A DNA stretch of 64,000 nucleotides from Candidatus Aminicenantota bacterium (GTDB lineage: Bacteria > Acidobacteriota > Aminicenantia > Aminicenantales > UBA4085), in contig PLMN01000029.1 in assembly GCA_003141555.1 (NCBI GenBank), positions 151,922 to 215,921 on the forward strand, given 5' to 3'. The stretch's first letter is position 1. Each line of letters begins with the position of its first letter. Positions 33,952-40,329 of this stretch are shown piece by piece. The notes beneath the pieces were generated by a model. It made no database searches. It was not told the origin of the DNA and worked only from the letters and a program-made list of their open reading frames with translations. Both the position numbers and the translations under genes were made by a program.

Positions 33952-33980
33952 TTGGTCGCGGGCCGGGGTTCATGTATAGT
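33952..33980 (+). promoter_or_regulatory. Promoter of the phosphoglycerate mutase gene
   Basis: TTGGTC (33952-33957), 17 bp, TATAGT (33975-33980). The chosen ATG 33999 is 18 nt away; the leader has no Shine-Dalgarno. Confidence 0.62.
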
Positions 33981-33998
33981 AAGGACTCCTTGCCGTCC

Positions 33999-35603
33999 AT
34001 GAGCCAAGAACGAAGAGTTTCTTCCGCCGGCCTTTCCCTGGGGGCCGCCATCCGCGCGGCCTATGCGGCCGGACAGGAGGACGAAGCCCTTGAACCCATC
34101 GTCAAGGTCCGCCCGGACGGGACGCCCGCAGGGCGGATCGGCCGGGGCGATTCCGTCATTTTCTACGACATCCGCGGCGAGCGCGAGATCGAGATGACCC
34201 GGAGCTTGACCGATCCGTCGTTCGCCTCTTTTCCCGTGGAGAAGAACCTGGGCCTCTATTTCGCGACGATGATCGAATACGACTCGACGCTCGACGTCGC
34301 CGTAGCGTTCCCGAAGGAAGGGAAGATCCGGAACACCCTGGCCGAAGTCGTCTCCCGGGCGGGGCTCCGGCTGGCCAAGGTCGCCGAGTCCGAAAAGGCG
34401 GCCCATATCGGCTTTTTTCTGAACGGCAAATCCGAAGACGTCTTCCCGGGCGAGGAGCGGGTCATCGTCCCGTCGCCCGAGGGACTGGCTAACTATGATG
34501 AGCGGCCGGAGATGAGCGCCCGCCTCGTGGCTGAGGCGGCCGTCCGCAAAGCCCTGGAGCCGGGAATCCGGCTGGTGGTCGCCAATTTCGCCAACGTCGA
34601 CGTCGTGGGCCACATCGAAAACCGTCCGGCCGTCCTCCGGGCCGTCGAAGCCGTGGATGAGGCGCTCGGCCGGGTCGCGGCCACCGCGGAAGCGGCCGGG
34701 GCGATCCTCGTCGTGACGGCCGACCACGGGACGGTCGAGGAATGGATGTACGCGGATGGGACGGTCAACACGGGCCACACCGCCAACCCGGTGCCCTTCC
34801 TCCTCGCCGATTTCTCGCGATCCTCCGCCGTCTCCGGCTTGCGGGCCGACGGCGAACTGGCCGATGTGGCCCCGACCGTCCTCGAGCTCCTCTCGCTCGC
34901 CCCGCCCGCCGAAATGACGGGTCGAAGCCTGATTCTCCCGGAAAACGGACGGCCCGGCGCCGGTCGGACCGTCGTGCTCCTCATCCTGGACGGCTGGGGG
35001 CTCGGCGACGGTGGCCCGGGCGATCTCATCGCCGGGGCGCGCACCCCCCATTTCGACGCGCTCTGGAAGCGTTTCCCGCACGCGCGGCTCGCGTCCTCGG
35101 GTGAGGCCGTGGGCATGCCTCCCGGTACGGTCGGGAATTCCGAAGCGGGGCACCTCCACCTCGGGGCGGGCCGGCGCGTTTTCCTGGACCGGGTCAGGAT
35201 CGACCGGGCCATCCGCGACGGCAGCTTCCAAGCCAACCCCGTCTTCCGCGAAGCCATGGAGCGGGCCCGCGCGGCGCGGCGGCAGCTTCATTTCATGGGG
35301 ATCGTCTCCCACTACAGCTCGCACGGCACGATCGCCCACCTCTTCGCCCTGCTCGAGATGGCCCGGGCGGCGGGGATGACGGACGTCTGTGTCCACGGCT
35401 TCATCGGGCGCCGGGGGGAGCGTCCGGAAAGCGGGGCGATCTATGTCGAGAAGGTCGAGGAGGAATGCCGGGCCATCGGAGCGGGGGAGGTCGTGACCGT
35501 CCTCGGCCGCTACTGGTCCCTCGACCGGGAAGGGAATTGGGACCGCGTGGAAAAGGCGTATCGGGCCTTGGTCTACGGCGAAGGGACGCGCGCCGGCGGA
35601 TGA
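33999..35603 (+). CDS. gpmI: Cofactor-independent phosphoglycerate mutase, circularly permuted
   Basis: A 534-residue iPGM of the alkaline phosphatase superfamily, interconverting 3- and 2-phosphoglycerate with Mn2+. The order of parts is reversed. Residues 11-312 match the usual second half (R59 and R62, EK133, D201 and H205, D242-H243, H260, ending AEMTGRSLIL). Then comes a short linker (314-322). Residues 324-534 match the usual first half (ILDGWG with D331, GNSEAGH with S381, H442, R504, R510). Metal ligands and the phospho-Ser are kept, but the DGRDTPP substrate loop is changed to GRRGERP (470-476). The breakpoint is inside the transferase domain. Confidence 0.85.
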   Translation: MSQERRVSSAGLSLGAAIRAAYAAGQEDEALEPIVKVRPDGTPAGRIGRGDSVIFYDIRGEREIEMTRSLTDPSFASFPVEKNLGLYFATMIEYDSTLDVAVAFPKEGKIRNTLAEVVSRAGLRLAKVAESEKAAHIGFFLNGKSEDVFPGEERVIVPSPEGLANYDERPEMSARLVAEAAVRKALEPGIRLVVANFANVDVVGHIENRPAVLRAVEAVDEALGRVAATAEAAGAILVVTADHGTVEEWMYADGTVNTGHTANPVPFLLADFSRSSAVSGLRADGELADVAPTVLELLSLAPPAEMTGRSLILPENGRPGAGRTVVLLILDGWGLGDGGPGDLIAGARTPHFDALWKRFPHARLASSGEAVGMPPGTVGNSEAGHLHLGAGRRVFLDRVRIDRAIRDGSFQANPVFREAMERARAARRQLHFMGIVSHYSSHGTIAHLFALLEMARAAGMTDVCVHGFIGRRGERPESGAIYVEKVEEECRAIGAGEVVTVLGRYWSLDREGNWDRVEKAYRALVYGEGTRAGG

Positions 35604-35690: not shown

Positions 35691-36602
35691 ATGAACATCG
35701 AGCTCAAAGACCTCCGTTTCAGCTACGGTCCGGTCGTTGCCCTGGCGGGCGTGGACCTCTCTCTTGGGGAAGGCGCCTGCGGCCTGCTCGGCCCGAACGG
35801 CGCGGGGAAGAGTACGCTCCTCCGGATCCTCCTCGGGTTCCTCCGGCCCGACCGGGGCGAGGGGCGCGTTCTGGGCTTTGACATCCGGCACGAACAGGCC
35901 CGGATCCGGCGGCTCGTGGGCTATATGCCCGAGGACGACTGCCTGATCCCCGGCATGGACGCCGTGACGTTTACCGCCTATTTCGGCGAGCTGTCCGGGA
36001 TGCCGCGCCAGGAGGCGATGAAGCGGGCCCACGATGTCCTCTTCTACGTCGGCCTCGGCGAAGCCCGCTACCGGAGCCTCGAGACCTACTCGGCCGGGAT
36101 GAAGCAGCGGCTGAAGATGGCCCAGGCCCTCGTCCACGATCCCAAGCTTCTCTTCCTCGACGAGCCGACCAGCAATCTCGATCCGCAGGGCCGGACCGAG
36201 GTCCTGGAGCTCATCAAGGACATCTCTTCGAAAAAGGACATCCAGGTTCTCGTCTCCTCCCATATCCTGACCGATATCGAATACACCTGTTCCCGGGTCG
36301 TCATCTTGAACCAGGGCAAGGTCGCCGCCCAGGGCGACATTGACGCCCTCAAGGAGATCCGGTTCAGCCTCTACGAGATCACGACCAAGGGCGACAACGC
36401 GAAATTCCTCAAGGCCCTGGCCGGGCGGGGGTGCAAGGTGGAGGAGACCGAGGACGGGATTCTCAAGGTCTATCTCCCGGCGGACATGGACCGACGAGGG
36501 ATCTTCGAGGCAGCCGTCCGGGAAAGCGTCCAGATCCGGACGTTCATCCGAAGCCGGACCTCGCTCGAGGACCTGTTCGCCCGGACGGTGGGAGTGGATT
36601 GA
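35691..36602 (+). CDS. ABC transporter ATP-binding protein
   Basis: A 303-residue ABC ATPase. Walker A is LLGPNGAGKST (about residues 33-43), the signature is YSAGMKQRLKMAQAL, Walker B is LLFLDEPTSNLDPQ, and the switch His lies in VSSHILTD. A C-terminal extension of about 80 residues follows, as in ABC-2-type exporters. The stop overlaps the permease start (TGATG). Substrate unknown. Confidence 0.9.
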   Translation: MNIELKDLRFSYGPVVALAGVDLSLGEGACGLLGPNGAGKSTLLRILLGFLRPDRGEGRVLGFDIRHEQARIRRLVGYMPEDDCLIPGMDAVTFTAYFGELSGMPRQEAMKRAHDVLFYVGLGEARYRSLETYSAGMKQRLKMAQALVHDPKLLFLDEPTSNLDPQGRTEVLELIKDISSKKDIQVLVSSHILTDIEYTCSRVVILNQGKVAAQGDIDALKEIRFSLYEITTKGDNAKFLKALAGRGCKVEETEDGILKVYLPADMDRRGIFEAAVRESVQIRTFIRSRTSLEDLFARTVGVD

Positions 36603-37480
36603 TGCCGATCGCGGAACAAGGCTACACGCACTGGACGGGTCATTTCGTCGATCGCCGCCTCCCCTGGTGGCCGATCTCCCGCCTGGGCATCAAGATGGCC
36701 TTCAAGCGCAAGTTCTTCAAGTTCGCCTTCGCCCTGTCCTTCTTGCCGGCGCTCATCTTTGCGGTGGGGATTTACATTTCCGAGCGGCTCGAGGATTTCC
36801 AGTTCATGTTCAAGGGGAGGAAGGGCTCGATGAGCTTCCTCGAGGTCAATCCCCTCTATTTCAAATCCTATTTCGGCGGGGATTTCCTCCTCTTCATGAT
36901 GGTCATGATGATGGTCCTCGGCGGGGCGGGCCTCATCGCCGACGACCTCAGGTCCAATTCGCTCCAGCTCTATTTCTCCCGCCCGATCCGCAAAGGCGAC
37001 TACCTTCTCGGCAAGCTGGCCACGGCCGGCTTCTTCCTCCTTCTGTTCACCCTCCTCCCCGGCCTGCTCTTCATCCTGCTGAAGATCATCTTTGCCGGGA
37101 GCTTCAAGCTGCTGACGGCCTATCCCTGGATCCTGCCGGCCGTCGTCCTGGATTCGCTTCTGGTCTCCGTGTTTTTCGCGGCCTATACGCTCCTCGTCTC
37201 CTCGCTCAGCAAGAACCGGCGCTATGCGGCGATCCTGATTTTTCTCATATATTTCTTCTCCGACATCTTCTTCAGCATCTTTTACGGCATCTTCCACAAC
37301 CCGTACTTCTGCCTGCTTTCAATCAAGGCCGATCTCCAGCAGGTCACGGCCGCCCTGTTCCGGGTGAAGCCCGCGTTCGAAGTCCCCTGGATTTATTCGC
37401 TCCTCGTCCTGGCCGGCCTCGTCCTGGCCTGCGGGGTCGTCCTCGTCCGGAAGACGCGCGGCGTCGAGGTGATCAAGTGA
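36602..37480 (+). CDS. ABC-2-type transporter permease
   Basis: A 292-residue membrane protein with about six helices, starting with a long N-terminal helix region (FFKFAFALSFLPALIFAVGI) and with GLIADDLRSNSLQLYFSRPI, the conserved cytoplasmic coupling loop of ABC-2 permeases, near residue 118. The start ATG overlaps the ATPase stop; the end overlaps the next ATPase by 4 nt. It partners the 35691 ATPase. Confidence 0.8.
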   Translation: MPIAEQGYTHWTGHFVDRRLPWWPISRLGIKMAFKRKFFKFAFALSFLPALIFAVGIYISERLEDFQFMFKGRKGSMSFLEVNPLYFKSYFGGDFLLFMMVMMMVLGGAGLIADDLRSNSLQLYFSRPIRKGDYLLGKLATAGFFLLLFTLLPGLLFILLKIIFAGSFKLLTAYPWILPAVVLDSLLVSVFFAAYTLLVSSLSKNRRYAAILIFLIYFFSDIFFSIFYGIFHNPYFCLLSIKADLQQVTAALFRVKPAFEVPWIYSLLVLAGLVLACGVVLVRKTRGVEVIK

Positions 37481-38403
37481 CGGCCGTCATCCGCGCGGAC
37501 AAGCTCAGCAAATGGTACGGCAACGTCCTCGGCCTGTCCGACGTGTCGCTCGAGATCGGCCCGGGGATCACCGGCCTGCTGGGCCCGAACGGGGCGGGCA
37601 AGTCGACGTTCATGAAGCTCGTCACCGGCCAGCTCAAGCCGAGTCTCGGCCGGGTGGAGATCTTCGGGCGCCCGATCTGGAACGCCACCGGGCTCTTCGC
37701 CCGGATCGGCTTCTGCCCCGAGCAGGACGCGTTCTATGACGAGCTGACCGGGGGAGAATTCGTGACCCGGCTCCTGGGGCTCCAGGGGTTTTCCCGGACG
37801 GAAGCGATGGCCCGGGCCGAAAAAGCCCTGCGGTTCGTGGAGCTCTTCGCGGAGAAGGACCGACTCCTGCGGGGATACAGCCGGGGCATGCGCCAGCGCC
37901 TGAAGATCGCCCAGACGATCGCCCATGATCCCGAGATCCTCATTCTCGACGAGCCGCTGAACGGGCTCGATCCCCTGAGCAAGCGCAAGATCATCCGGCT
38001 CATCCGCGACCTCAGGGACGCAGGCCGGACGATCATCGTCTCGAGCCATGTCCTGCCCGAAATCGAGGCCCTGACCCGGTCGATCGTTCTCCTCCACCAG
38101 GGCAAGATCCTGGCCCAGGGGGACATTCCCTACATCCGCGACCTCATCGACAAGCATCCCCACAAGATCTCGGTCAAGTGCGCCGATCCGCGGGCCCTAG
38201 CCTCCGGGCTCCTCGAACAGCCCTCGGTCCGGGCGATCCAATTCGGGCCCGAGGCGGAAACGGTCGTCTTCGAGACGCAGGATCGGGACGCGTTCTTCGG
38301 GCTCCTGACCCGGCTGATCGTGGAGAACGGGCAGGACATCGAAGAGATCACCTCGCCCGACGACAATCTGCAGGCGGTCTTCGATTACCTGGTGGGAACA
38401 TGA
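37477..38403 (+). CDS. ABC transporter ATP-binding protein
   Basis: A 308-residue ABC ATPase with GTG start overlapping the permease stop. Walker A is GLLGPNGAGKSTFMKL, the signature YSRGMRQRLKIAQTI, Walker B ILILDEPLNGLDPL, and the His loop VSSHVLPEIEAL. The C-terminal domain (about 225-308) is the extra region seen in ABC-2-type ATPases. Sequence-similar to the 35691 gene, so the pair probably arose by duplication. Confidence 0.9.
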   Translation: MTAVIRADKLSKWYGNVLGLSDVSLEIGPGITGLLGPNGAGKSTFMKLVTGQLKPSLGRVEIFGRPIWNATGLFARIGFCPEQDAFYDELTGGEFVTRLLGLQGFSRTEAMARAEKALRFVELFAEKDRLLRGYSRGMRQRLKIAQTIAHDPEILILDEPLNGLDPLSKRKIIRLIRDLRDAGRTIIVSSHVLPEIEALTRSIVLLHQGKILAQGDIPYIRDLIDKHPHKISVKCADPRALASGLLEQPSVRAIQFGPEAETVVFETQDRDAFFGLLTRLIVENGQDIEEITSPDDNLQAVFDYLVGT

Positions 38404-39197
38404 GCGCTCTGGCCCGTTCGGTCCGGTCCGTCTTCTCGTTTTATCTTTTCATCGTGCGCCGGGCGCGCCGGACCAAGATCTTCGCCCTGGTCAGCTTCCT
38501 CCCCGCGTTGGCGGCCCTGGTCATCAGAGTCAACGCCTGGCTGTCGCCCGGGGCGGCGGTCGACGGGCCGGCCGTGTTCTCCAACATCATCCTGACCTTC
38601 AATCTCCAGTTCCTCATCCTCGTCCTGGCCTTGTTCTACGGGACGTCGATCTTGGCCGAGGAGCTCGAAGGGAAAACGCTGACCTATCTCACGACCCGGG
38701 CCGTGCCGAAGGCGGCCATCATTCTCGGCAAATACGCGGCTTACGTATCGTTCCTCATCGTGATGGTGGCGGCCGGCGTGACGCTGGCCTTCGTGATTCT
38801 TTTCGCCGACCGGCTGGGGGACGCCCAAGCCTGGCTCGTGCTCGCCCGCAGCGCGGCCGTCCTCGCCCTCGGCCTTCTGACCTACACGGCCTTTTTCACC
38901 CTGGCGGGCGTCCTCCTCAAGAAATCAATCCTCTTCGGTCTGATGTTCAGCTTCGGCTGGGAGAATATCGTTCCCTATTTCCCGGGCGCGACGCAGCGCT
39001 TCGCGATCATGCATTACCTCAAGTCGCTGCTGCCCCCGATTTCGACGGGAGGGGAGGGGAACTTCGCGTTTCTGATGTTCAAGTTGGAGCCCAGCACTCC
39101 GGCCGCGGCGATCGTGACGCTGGCCGTCGTGACCGCCGCGGCCTTGGGGCTGGCCTGTTGGGCCTTCGCCCGGAAGGAATATCTCTTCGAGGAATAG
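38400..39197 (+). CDS. ABC-2-type transporter permease
   Basis: A 265-residue membrane protein with about six helices and a SILAEELEGKTLTYLTTRAV coupling loop. Its ATG overlaps the ATPase stop (ATGA). The sequence is paralogous in layout to the 36602 permease. Together the four genes encode two ATPase-permease pairs that may form one heteromeric exporter. Confidence 0.8.
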   Translation: MSALARSVRSVFSFYLFIVRRARRTKIFALVSFLPALAALVIRVNAWLSPGAAVDGPAVFSNIILTFNLQFLILVLALFYGTSILAEELEGKTLTYLTTRAVPKAAIILGKYAAYVSFLIVMVAAGVTLAFVILFADRLGDAQAWLVLARSAAVLALGLLTYTAFFTLAGVLLKKSILFGLMFSFGWENIVPYFPGATQRFAIMHYLKSLLPPISTGGEGNFAFLMFKLEPSTPAAAIVTLAVVTAAALGLACWAFARKEYLFEE

Positions 39198-39209: not shown

Positions 39210-40241
39210 CTACTTCTTTTCGACCTTCTTCTCGTCCTTGGCGACTTCGTCCTTGGCCCCGGCCATTTTCTCCTTCACCGTCTGCTCGGCCGTGGCGCTG
39301 AGCTTGGTCAGGAGCTCCTCGGGCAGGAGGGCCGCGATCTTGACGAATTCGGGAGACGACGTGACCTCGATCTTGTTGACGAGTTCGCCGATCTCAGGCT
39401 TTTCGCCGGCGGCCATGGCCCCCAGGGCCTTGAGGCCGTTCAGGGCGTCGGCCGTCTGCTTGTTCTTTTCGGCGTCGCCGCCCATGCCCTTGATCTCGAT
39501 CTTGAGGGCCTTGTTCTTGTAGTCCAGGGCGATGAGGACGGACTTCAGGCCTGCCAAGCTGGAGACCATCGGATTCTGCGCGGCCACGGCCTTCATCGCC
39601 TCGGGCGGAAGGATGGCGGCGGCCCAGAGCATGGCGGTCTGGTCGGCCGACTTGAGGAGGGTGGTCAGGCCCTCATTCTTGAGAACGCTGTCCGCCCCCT
39701 TCTTGACGACATCGATGACCGCTTTCACGTCCTTGGCTTCGCCCAGGATGATGTTCGAAGAATCATAGAAAACCCCGGACATGGGTTTTTTCTCGTCGCC
39801 CTCGGGGACCGTGTATAGCGTCAGGCCCTCATAGGTCTCTTCCGTGACGTTCGTCGCCTTTTCCTTCAGCTTGGCCAGGAGCTTGTCCTTGTCGTATTTC
39901 AGATTGACGACGATCGCGGGAGAGGCCTTGTCCAAGCCCTCCGATCCCATCAGCCCGACGACGGCGTAATAGACGTCCTTCTGGGGGTCGATCCCCGTGT
40001 CCTTGATGAAATCCAAGTATTTCTGGTTGTCCTTGCCGTCCTTGAGAGCCTTGTCGACGAAGGCCGTGTTCATCCCGGCGTGGACGTCGATGACGACGAC
40101 CCCTTGGACGCTCTTGGGGAGCATCGAGAGCATGTCCGCAGCCGAGGCCGAACCGGCCGCGGGTGCGCCGGCCTTCTTGCAGGCGGCGAATCCGAAGACC
40201 AGTAGGAGCAGAGCAAGTGAACCGACGGCGAATTTTTTCAT
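39210..40241 (-). CDS. Lipoprotein of unknown function
   Basis: A 343-residue protein with a clean lipoprotein signal: KKFAVGSLALLLLVFGFAAC, where Cys21 follows FAA. After the Cys come a short linker and a repeated alpha/beta domain (AADMLSMLPKSVQGVVVIDV; SGVFYDSSNIILGEAKDVK) typical of large bacterial lipoproteins such as DUF3352-like, though the family is not certain. The Lys/Glu-rich tail ends EKKVEKK. GGAGGA precedes ATG 40241. Single gene. Confidence 0.65.
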   Translation of the reverse strand: MKKFAVGSLALLLLVFGFAACKKAGAPAAGSASAADMLSMLPKSVQGVVVIDVHAGMNTAFVDKALKDGKDNQKYLDFIKDTGIDPQKDVYYAVVGLMGSEGLDKASPAIVVNLKYDKDKLLAKLKEKATNVTEETYEGLTLYTVPEGDEKKPMSGVFYDSSNIILGEAKDVKAVIDVVKKGADSVLKNEGLTTLLKSADQTAMLWAAAILPPEAMKAVAAQNPMVSSLAGLKSVLIALDYKNKALKIEIKGMGGDAEKNKQTADALNGLKALGAMAAGEKPEIGELVNKIEVTSSPEFVKIAALLPEELLTKLSATAEQTVKEKMAGAKDEVAKDEKKVEKK

Positions 40242-40286
40242 GGATTCCTCCTCTCCAGATCGATATACGAAAATGGAGCGAATATG

Positions 40287-40329
40287 GTTTGCTCCGGGAC
40301 TATAACACACTCGGAATCCGGGAGCAAAC
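40287..40329. repeat. Inverted repeat overlapping a lipoprotein promoter
   Basis: GTTTGCTCC (40287-40295) and GGAGCAAAC (40321-40329) form a 9-bp perfect inverted repeat with a 25-bp centre. One arm is also the -35 of the lipoprotein promoter and the -10 TATAGT lies between the arms, so it could be an operator. Confidence 0.45.
40299..40327 (-). promoter_or_regulatory. Promoter of the 39210 lipoprotein
   Basis: TTGCTC (40327-40322), 17 bp, TATAGT (40304-40299). Ordinary leader of about 50 nt ending in GGAGGA. Confidence 0.55.

Follow-up and report, generated by a model that had tools for sequence, protein, structure and literature searches.

A circularly permuted relative of cofactor-independent phosphoglycerate mutase spread across bacterial phyla

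Does a gene of a Candidatus Aminicenantota bacterium encode a cofactor-independent phosphoglycerate mutase (iPGM, GpmI) whose two halves have exchanged places, and if it does, is the product still a phosphoglycerate mutase (PGM)? The gene lies in a 64,000-nucleotide stretch of contig PLMN01000029.1 (assembly GCA_003141555.1), analysed as a whole and called the window here, and a preliminary description made from the letters alone had read it as a permuted and probably active iPGM. Its open reading frame (33972..35603, forward strand, 543 aa) is open throughout from an ATG at 33972. The internal ATG at 33999, where the preliminary description placed the start, is the likely initiation codon because the start codons of relatives cluster at its position; initiation at 33972 is in-frame and possible, and is disfavoured since the start sites of relatives fall at 33999. 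Residues such as D210, S390 and G482 are numbered here from 33972, while the preliminary description counted from 33999. Coordinates are collected in Table 1.

Table 1. Features of the permuted gene and its surroundings, in window positions.
Feature	Coordinates	Strand	Remarks
Gene for circularly permuted iPGM-fold protein	33999..35603	+	534 aa from ATG 33999
First segment, iPGM ~217-510 (second transferase part and phosphatase part 2)	34044..34934	+	TIGR01307 and 1EJJ matches
Linker, ~10 residues	34935..34964	+	Old C-terminus AEMTGRSLI to old N-terminus TVVLLILDGWG
Second segment, iPGM ~4-211 (phosphatase part 1 and first transferase part)	34965..35588	+	TIGR01307 and 1EJJ matches
Codon of phospho-acceptor Ser390 (Bst Ser62)	35139..35141	+	Invariant, 86/86 rows
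GRRGE loop, residues 479-483, replacing DGRD(V/T); Asp154 = Gly482	35406..35420	+	Invariant in type I
Two ABC ATPase and ABC-2 permease pairs	35691..39197	+	About 35691-36602, 36596-37480, 37474-38403, 38400-39197
Lipoprotein-like DUF3352 protein	39213-40310	-	Same place in about 25 Aminicenantes loci

We find that the window protein is a circularly permuted relative of GpmI. It scores 473.9 bits against the iPGM model TIGR01307 (equivalog cut-off 330.65), in two stretches whose order is swapped: residues 25-321 cover model positions 215-504, and the model's N-terminal half falls on residues 332-539. Comparison with the Geobacillus iPGM (1EJJ) by phmmer, an enzyme that had been proposed as a reference for this check, places residues 27-322 on chain residues 220-510 and residues 332-539 on 4-211, at about 200 bits each, and the Pfam iPGM_N match is split as well, with model positions 135-216 first and 1-131 second. 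The three profile and sequence methods thus agree on the order transferase-b, phosphatase-2, linker, phosphatase-1, transferase-a, in place of the usual phosphatase-1, transferase, phosphatase-2; a collinear order, named beforehand as the outcome that would overturn the claim, is not what the alignments show. A chance match is excluded by the E-values, and the swapped order recurs at 44-80% identity in independent genomes.

The first segment carries the metal ligands D210, H214, D251, H252 and H269 (DxxxH, DH and HT motifs) and the substrate residues R68, R71 and K142. The short linker that the preliminary description had reported is present between the matches of the two halves, and in most family members 15-20 residues separate MTGxSL from LDGW. 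The second segment ends at VEKAYRALVYGEG (VYGEG), the point where the ordinary protein would run on; the new termini lie in a transferase-domain loop at about iPGM residues 212-219. With 26 permuted homologues as input, AlphaFold2 gives a confident model (pLDDT 82.3, pTM 0.78), and iPGM structures are its only significant Foldseek matches; where aligned, it is about 37% identical to solved iPGMs. These matches cover about half of the chain (TM 0.43), as permutation predicts for Foldseek, a sequential aligner that follows sequence order.

The swapped order occurs in one open frame in more than 85 distinct sequences from at least seven bacterial phyla. Permuted hosts belong to the Acidobacteriota (Aminicenantia, B38), Syntrophales/Deltaproteobacteria, Eisenbacteria, Zixibacteria, Armatimonadota, Stahlbacteria and Chloroflexota, and the named records include Candidatus Aminicenantes, candidate division B38, Syntrophaceae/Smithella/Syntrophus, other Deltaproteobacteria, Eisenbacteria, Zixibacteria, Armatimonadetes, Stahlbacteria and Chloroflexi. 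Additional Chloroflexota genomes extend this list. Close to the window's genome, where a look for the same arrangement had been proposed, permuted relatives with 54-80% identity are found in most of its taxonomic order, and further ones occur in a different order of that class and elsewhere in the phylum, in other classes. Trees built on rotated alignments place every permuted sequence on one side of a branch, as one clade (bootstrap 100, SH-aLRT 99; SH-aLRT 100 in another tree), so one permutation event suffices on the phylogenetic evidence. This single ancient event would most simply have been a tandem duplication or fusion after which an iPGM gene lost its outer parts, so that a short linker connected the former C-terminus with the former N-terminus and the new ends came to lie in the loop at ~212-219; the product should fold as the same two-domain enzyme.

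The family divides into a main subfamily, type I, and its sister, type II, which comprises four permuted Chloroflexota proteins at 44-47% identity (L146-L149; genomes G424, G355, G392 and G393). The metal ligands D12, D403, H407, D444, H445 and H462 (Geobacillus numbering) and the phospho-acceptor Ser62, which is Ser390 in the window protein, are invariant in 86/86 type I rows, and the ligand positions given in the preliminary description (D331, D201, H205, D242, H243, H260 and S381, counted from 33999) are correct, as is its statement that the metal and phosphoserine site is intact. Nine residues are reported to touch phosphoglycerate in iPGM: S62, H123, R153, D154, R185, R191, R261, R264 and K336 (PMC3886921). 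Eight of them are kept in the permuted family, with H123, R153, R261, R264 and K336 unvarying in the 86 type I rows and R185 and R191 unvarying where covered (one type I row has a gap there), and the ninth, Asp154, is always lost: all 86 type I rows have Gly in its place, and all four type II proteins have Ser. In the iPGM mechanism, Asp154 engages the hydroxyl groups of the glycerate while the substrate is re-oriented.

The loops around these residues are rewritten. D151-G152-R153-D154-V155 becomes G-R-R-G-E in every type I row, a count biased for the 80 loci whose detection relied in part on the motif GRRGE[KR]PES; other permuted loci came from searches with the whole protein, and wherever these were read the motif is the same, type II excepted. 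The His123 loop changes from SDGGVHS to S.[YF]SSHG in type I, and the corresponding type II motifs are D-G-R-S and T-E-K-S-S-H-G (TEKSSHGS), whereas none of the 21 collinear rows checked has lost the DGRD loop. The replacement of DGRD by GRRG(E) had been noticed in the window protein at the outset, with the comment that substrate handling may differ, and the invariant loss of Asp154 is in line with that comment.

We further asked which other PGMs the hosts carry. The window's genome has one ApgM candidate (G000:C9:83027-84145), above the TIGR00306 and PRK04135 cut-offs, and neither a collinear iPGM nor gpmA, the two genes that had been proposed as a check, was found in it. Within the class, ApgM occurs in 51/56 permuted-bearing genomes versus 0/8 with collinear iPGM (Fisher p=3e-7), and within the Chloroflexota in 14/14 versus 1/6 (p=4e-4), counts taken over phylogenetically non-independent genomes that include incomplete MAGs and drafts. 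A further 29 permuted hosts, mostly from other phyla, carry ApgM with one exception (28/29), and the exception, G315, has a collinear iPGM. A protein that served as its host's PGM would be expected to take the place of ApgM, not to occur beside it, unless the two are isozymes. In the host and in the related genomes scanned, ApgM scores above the cut-off of an NCBIfam equivalog model for PGM. Near-complete relatives without any iPGM (e.g., G101 and G104) retain the same PRK04135-type ApgM, which points to ApgM as the working PGM and to the permuted protein as an extra, and many relatives that keep ApgM are without the permuted gene.

Two less usual combinations were also seen. G075 and G076, relatives from the window's order (genus g33), hold the only gpmA genes among 142 class genomes and are both without a convincing ApgM; G076 also has a permuted gene, which is cut off. 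Four Syntrophaceae loci (L135-L138; G333, G335, G326 and G343) come from genomes that have, besides the permuted protein, a very divergent collinear iPGM (~549 aa, 'DDDMGNSEVGHNA' and 'GGGRMKVTMDRYNSDW', branch length >2).

The gene neighbourhood differs among lineages. In most Aminicenantes loci the permuted gene is followed at a distance of 30-340 bases by the four-gene ABC block, which is probably not functionally tied to it because the block is not conserved in other phyla. Syntrophales and relatives have divergent pcm/nlpD/CarD/IspDF genes upstream, and in many of their loci (L098, L100, L104-L106, L108, L114, L117, L118, L120, L122, L126, L127 and others) only a few bases separate the stop of the permuted gene from the start of a macro-domain (PF01661) gene, which suggests an operon of the two. 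A histidine phosphatase (PF00300) gene follows by no more than 2 bases in two Chloroflexota (L133/L161 and L162). The type II gene of G355 and G424 is preceded by tandem HAD-phosphatase genes and directly followed by a second PRK04135-type ApgM, in a locus that includes a LacI regulator, joined in G355 by a GH130 phosphorylase; B38 neighbours are of the transaldolase/PALP/glycosyltransferase kind. No neighbour common to all lineages was found among the loci compared, and since the lineages share no partner we draw no pathway from the neighbourhood. A phosphonate link through a split sulfopyruvate/phosphonopyruvate-decarboxylase-like pair close to the permuted gene in G100 was dropped: the pair is seen in one genome, on the opposite strand and with a gene between.

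The rewritten acceptor side and the presence of another PGM in the hosts modestly favour a changed substrate or a phosphatase-like reaction over an ordinary isozyme. We give a probability of roughly 0.55 to the reading of the protein as an active phosphoryl-transfer enzyme, dependent on metal and phosphoserine, which would be a paralogue of the main, housekeeping PGM with a changed acceptor or substrate or a phosphatase-like role. Two divalent metals and Ser390 would take phosphate from a small phosphorylated, probably carboxylate-bearing substrate that the Arg/Lys set binds. The transferase domain, its pocket rebuilt by the loss of Asp154 and by the GRRGE and YSSHG loops, would then direct the phosphate from Ser390 to an acceptor or let it go to water. 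The broader proposal, that the permutation founded a new family of permuted iPGM-fold phosphotransferases (two subfamilies, at least seven phyla) with a rebuilt pocket and a reaction other than that of PGM, may be right or wrong with about equal chance.

The strongest rival, somewhat less probable than the changed-substrate reading, is a plain isozyme, an active cofactor-independent PGM in which permutation is the sole oddity, with Glu483, beside Gly482, or another residue standing in for Asp154. The equivalog-level TIGR01307 score, the invariant metal ligands and the identity to solved iPGMs in the structural alignment speak for it; the eight unchanged contacts, among them the likely carboxylate- and phosphate-binding Arg/Lys residues, are what one expects for a glycerate phosphate; the type II genes of G355 and G424 adjoin carbohydrate catabolism genes, and two PGM isozymes per genome are common, for example in E. 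coli and Geobacter (PMC2964296). The unchanged contacts, the possible stand-in Glu483 and the frequency of paired isozymes weigh against a changed substrate, together with the non-independence and incompleteness behind the co-occurrence counts and a neighbourhood that gives no consistent pathway. An isozyme fits less well with the loss of Asp154 in both permuted subfamilies and the rewritten His123 loop, with an ApgM or collinear iPGM in nearly all permuted hosts, unlike collinear-iPGM hosts, and with the absence of the permuted gene from many relatives that keep ApgM. The name iPGM in the preliminary description stands as far as a permuted iPGM relative is meant; as an identification of the protein as a phosphoglycerate mutase it is a candidate reading.

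A catalytically inactive or regulatory descendant of iPGM, to which the lost contact and the redundancy with ApgM could point, is improbable, because the 86 rows, from several phyla, all keep the metal ligands, Ser62 and the Arg/Lys set, as a dead enzyme would not. An assembly error, whether by joining two contigs or by merging two tandem genes, could be imagined in a draft assembly of 33 contigs, but is ruled out by the same order and junction in the more than 85 distinct sequences, which come from independent assemblies, include two single-contig genomes (G059 and G060) and form one clade.

Among core metabolic enzymes natural circular permutation is rare, and an iPGM must open and close around two hinges. 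A permuted iPGM was not found in the open-access literature searched, which agrees with the preliminary statement that none had been described, and a survey of PGMs in 702 genomes makes no mention of permutation (PMC2964296). We would file the protein as an iPGM variant rather than as a proven PGM. The permuted form is old, widely inherited and hidden from standard annotation, because annotation sums both stretches and names the protein plain 'phosphoglycerate mutase'. It offers a natural experiment on how a two-hinged enzyme tolerates new ends within its moving domain, and, if the substrate has changed, a carbon-metabolism step is misnamed in models of many genomes of uncultured anaerobes.

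Among known systems, GpmI/PgmI (TIGR01307; 1EJJ, 1O98 and 5KGN) is the closest, sharing the two-domain fold by sequence, all metal ligands, phospho-Ser62 and H123, R153, R185, R191, R261, R264 and K336; the permuted protein differs in its order, in Asp154 to Gly (or Ser), in the changes of SDGGVHS to S.[YF]SSHG and DGRD to GRRGE, in forming a separate clade and in living beside another PGM. The ApgM or archaeal-type iPGM (TIGR00306, PRK04135) belongs to the same metalloenzyme superfamily and occurs in the same hosts, but is collinear and ~400 aa long, and the window protein scores far below the cut-offs of TIGR00306 (25.9 bits; cut-off 320) and of the phosphopentomutase models NF003766 and NF009049 (29.8 and 31.5 bits; cut-offs 256 and 254). 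PhpG (NF038358), a phosphonoformyl transferase of the iPGM superfamily with its own curated model and another substrate, shows by analogy that this superfamily can change its acceptor, although PhpG is of the ApgM branch, unpermuted and without a close sequence link to the permuted protein. For the rearrangement itself the comparison is eukaryotic glutathione synthetase, a metabolic enzyme family in which natural circular permutation is on record (PMC2876114); its fold and reaction are unrelated, and its reaction was conserved despite the permutation.
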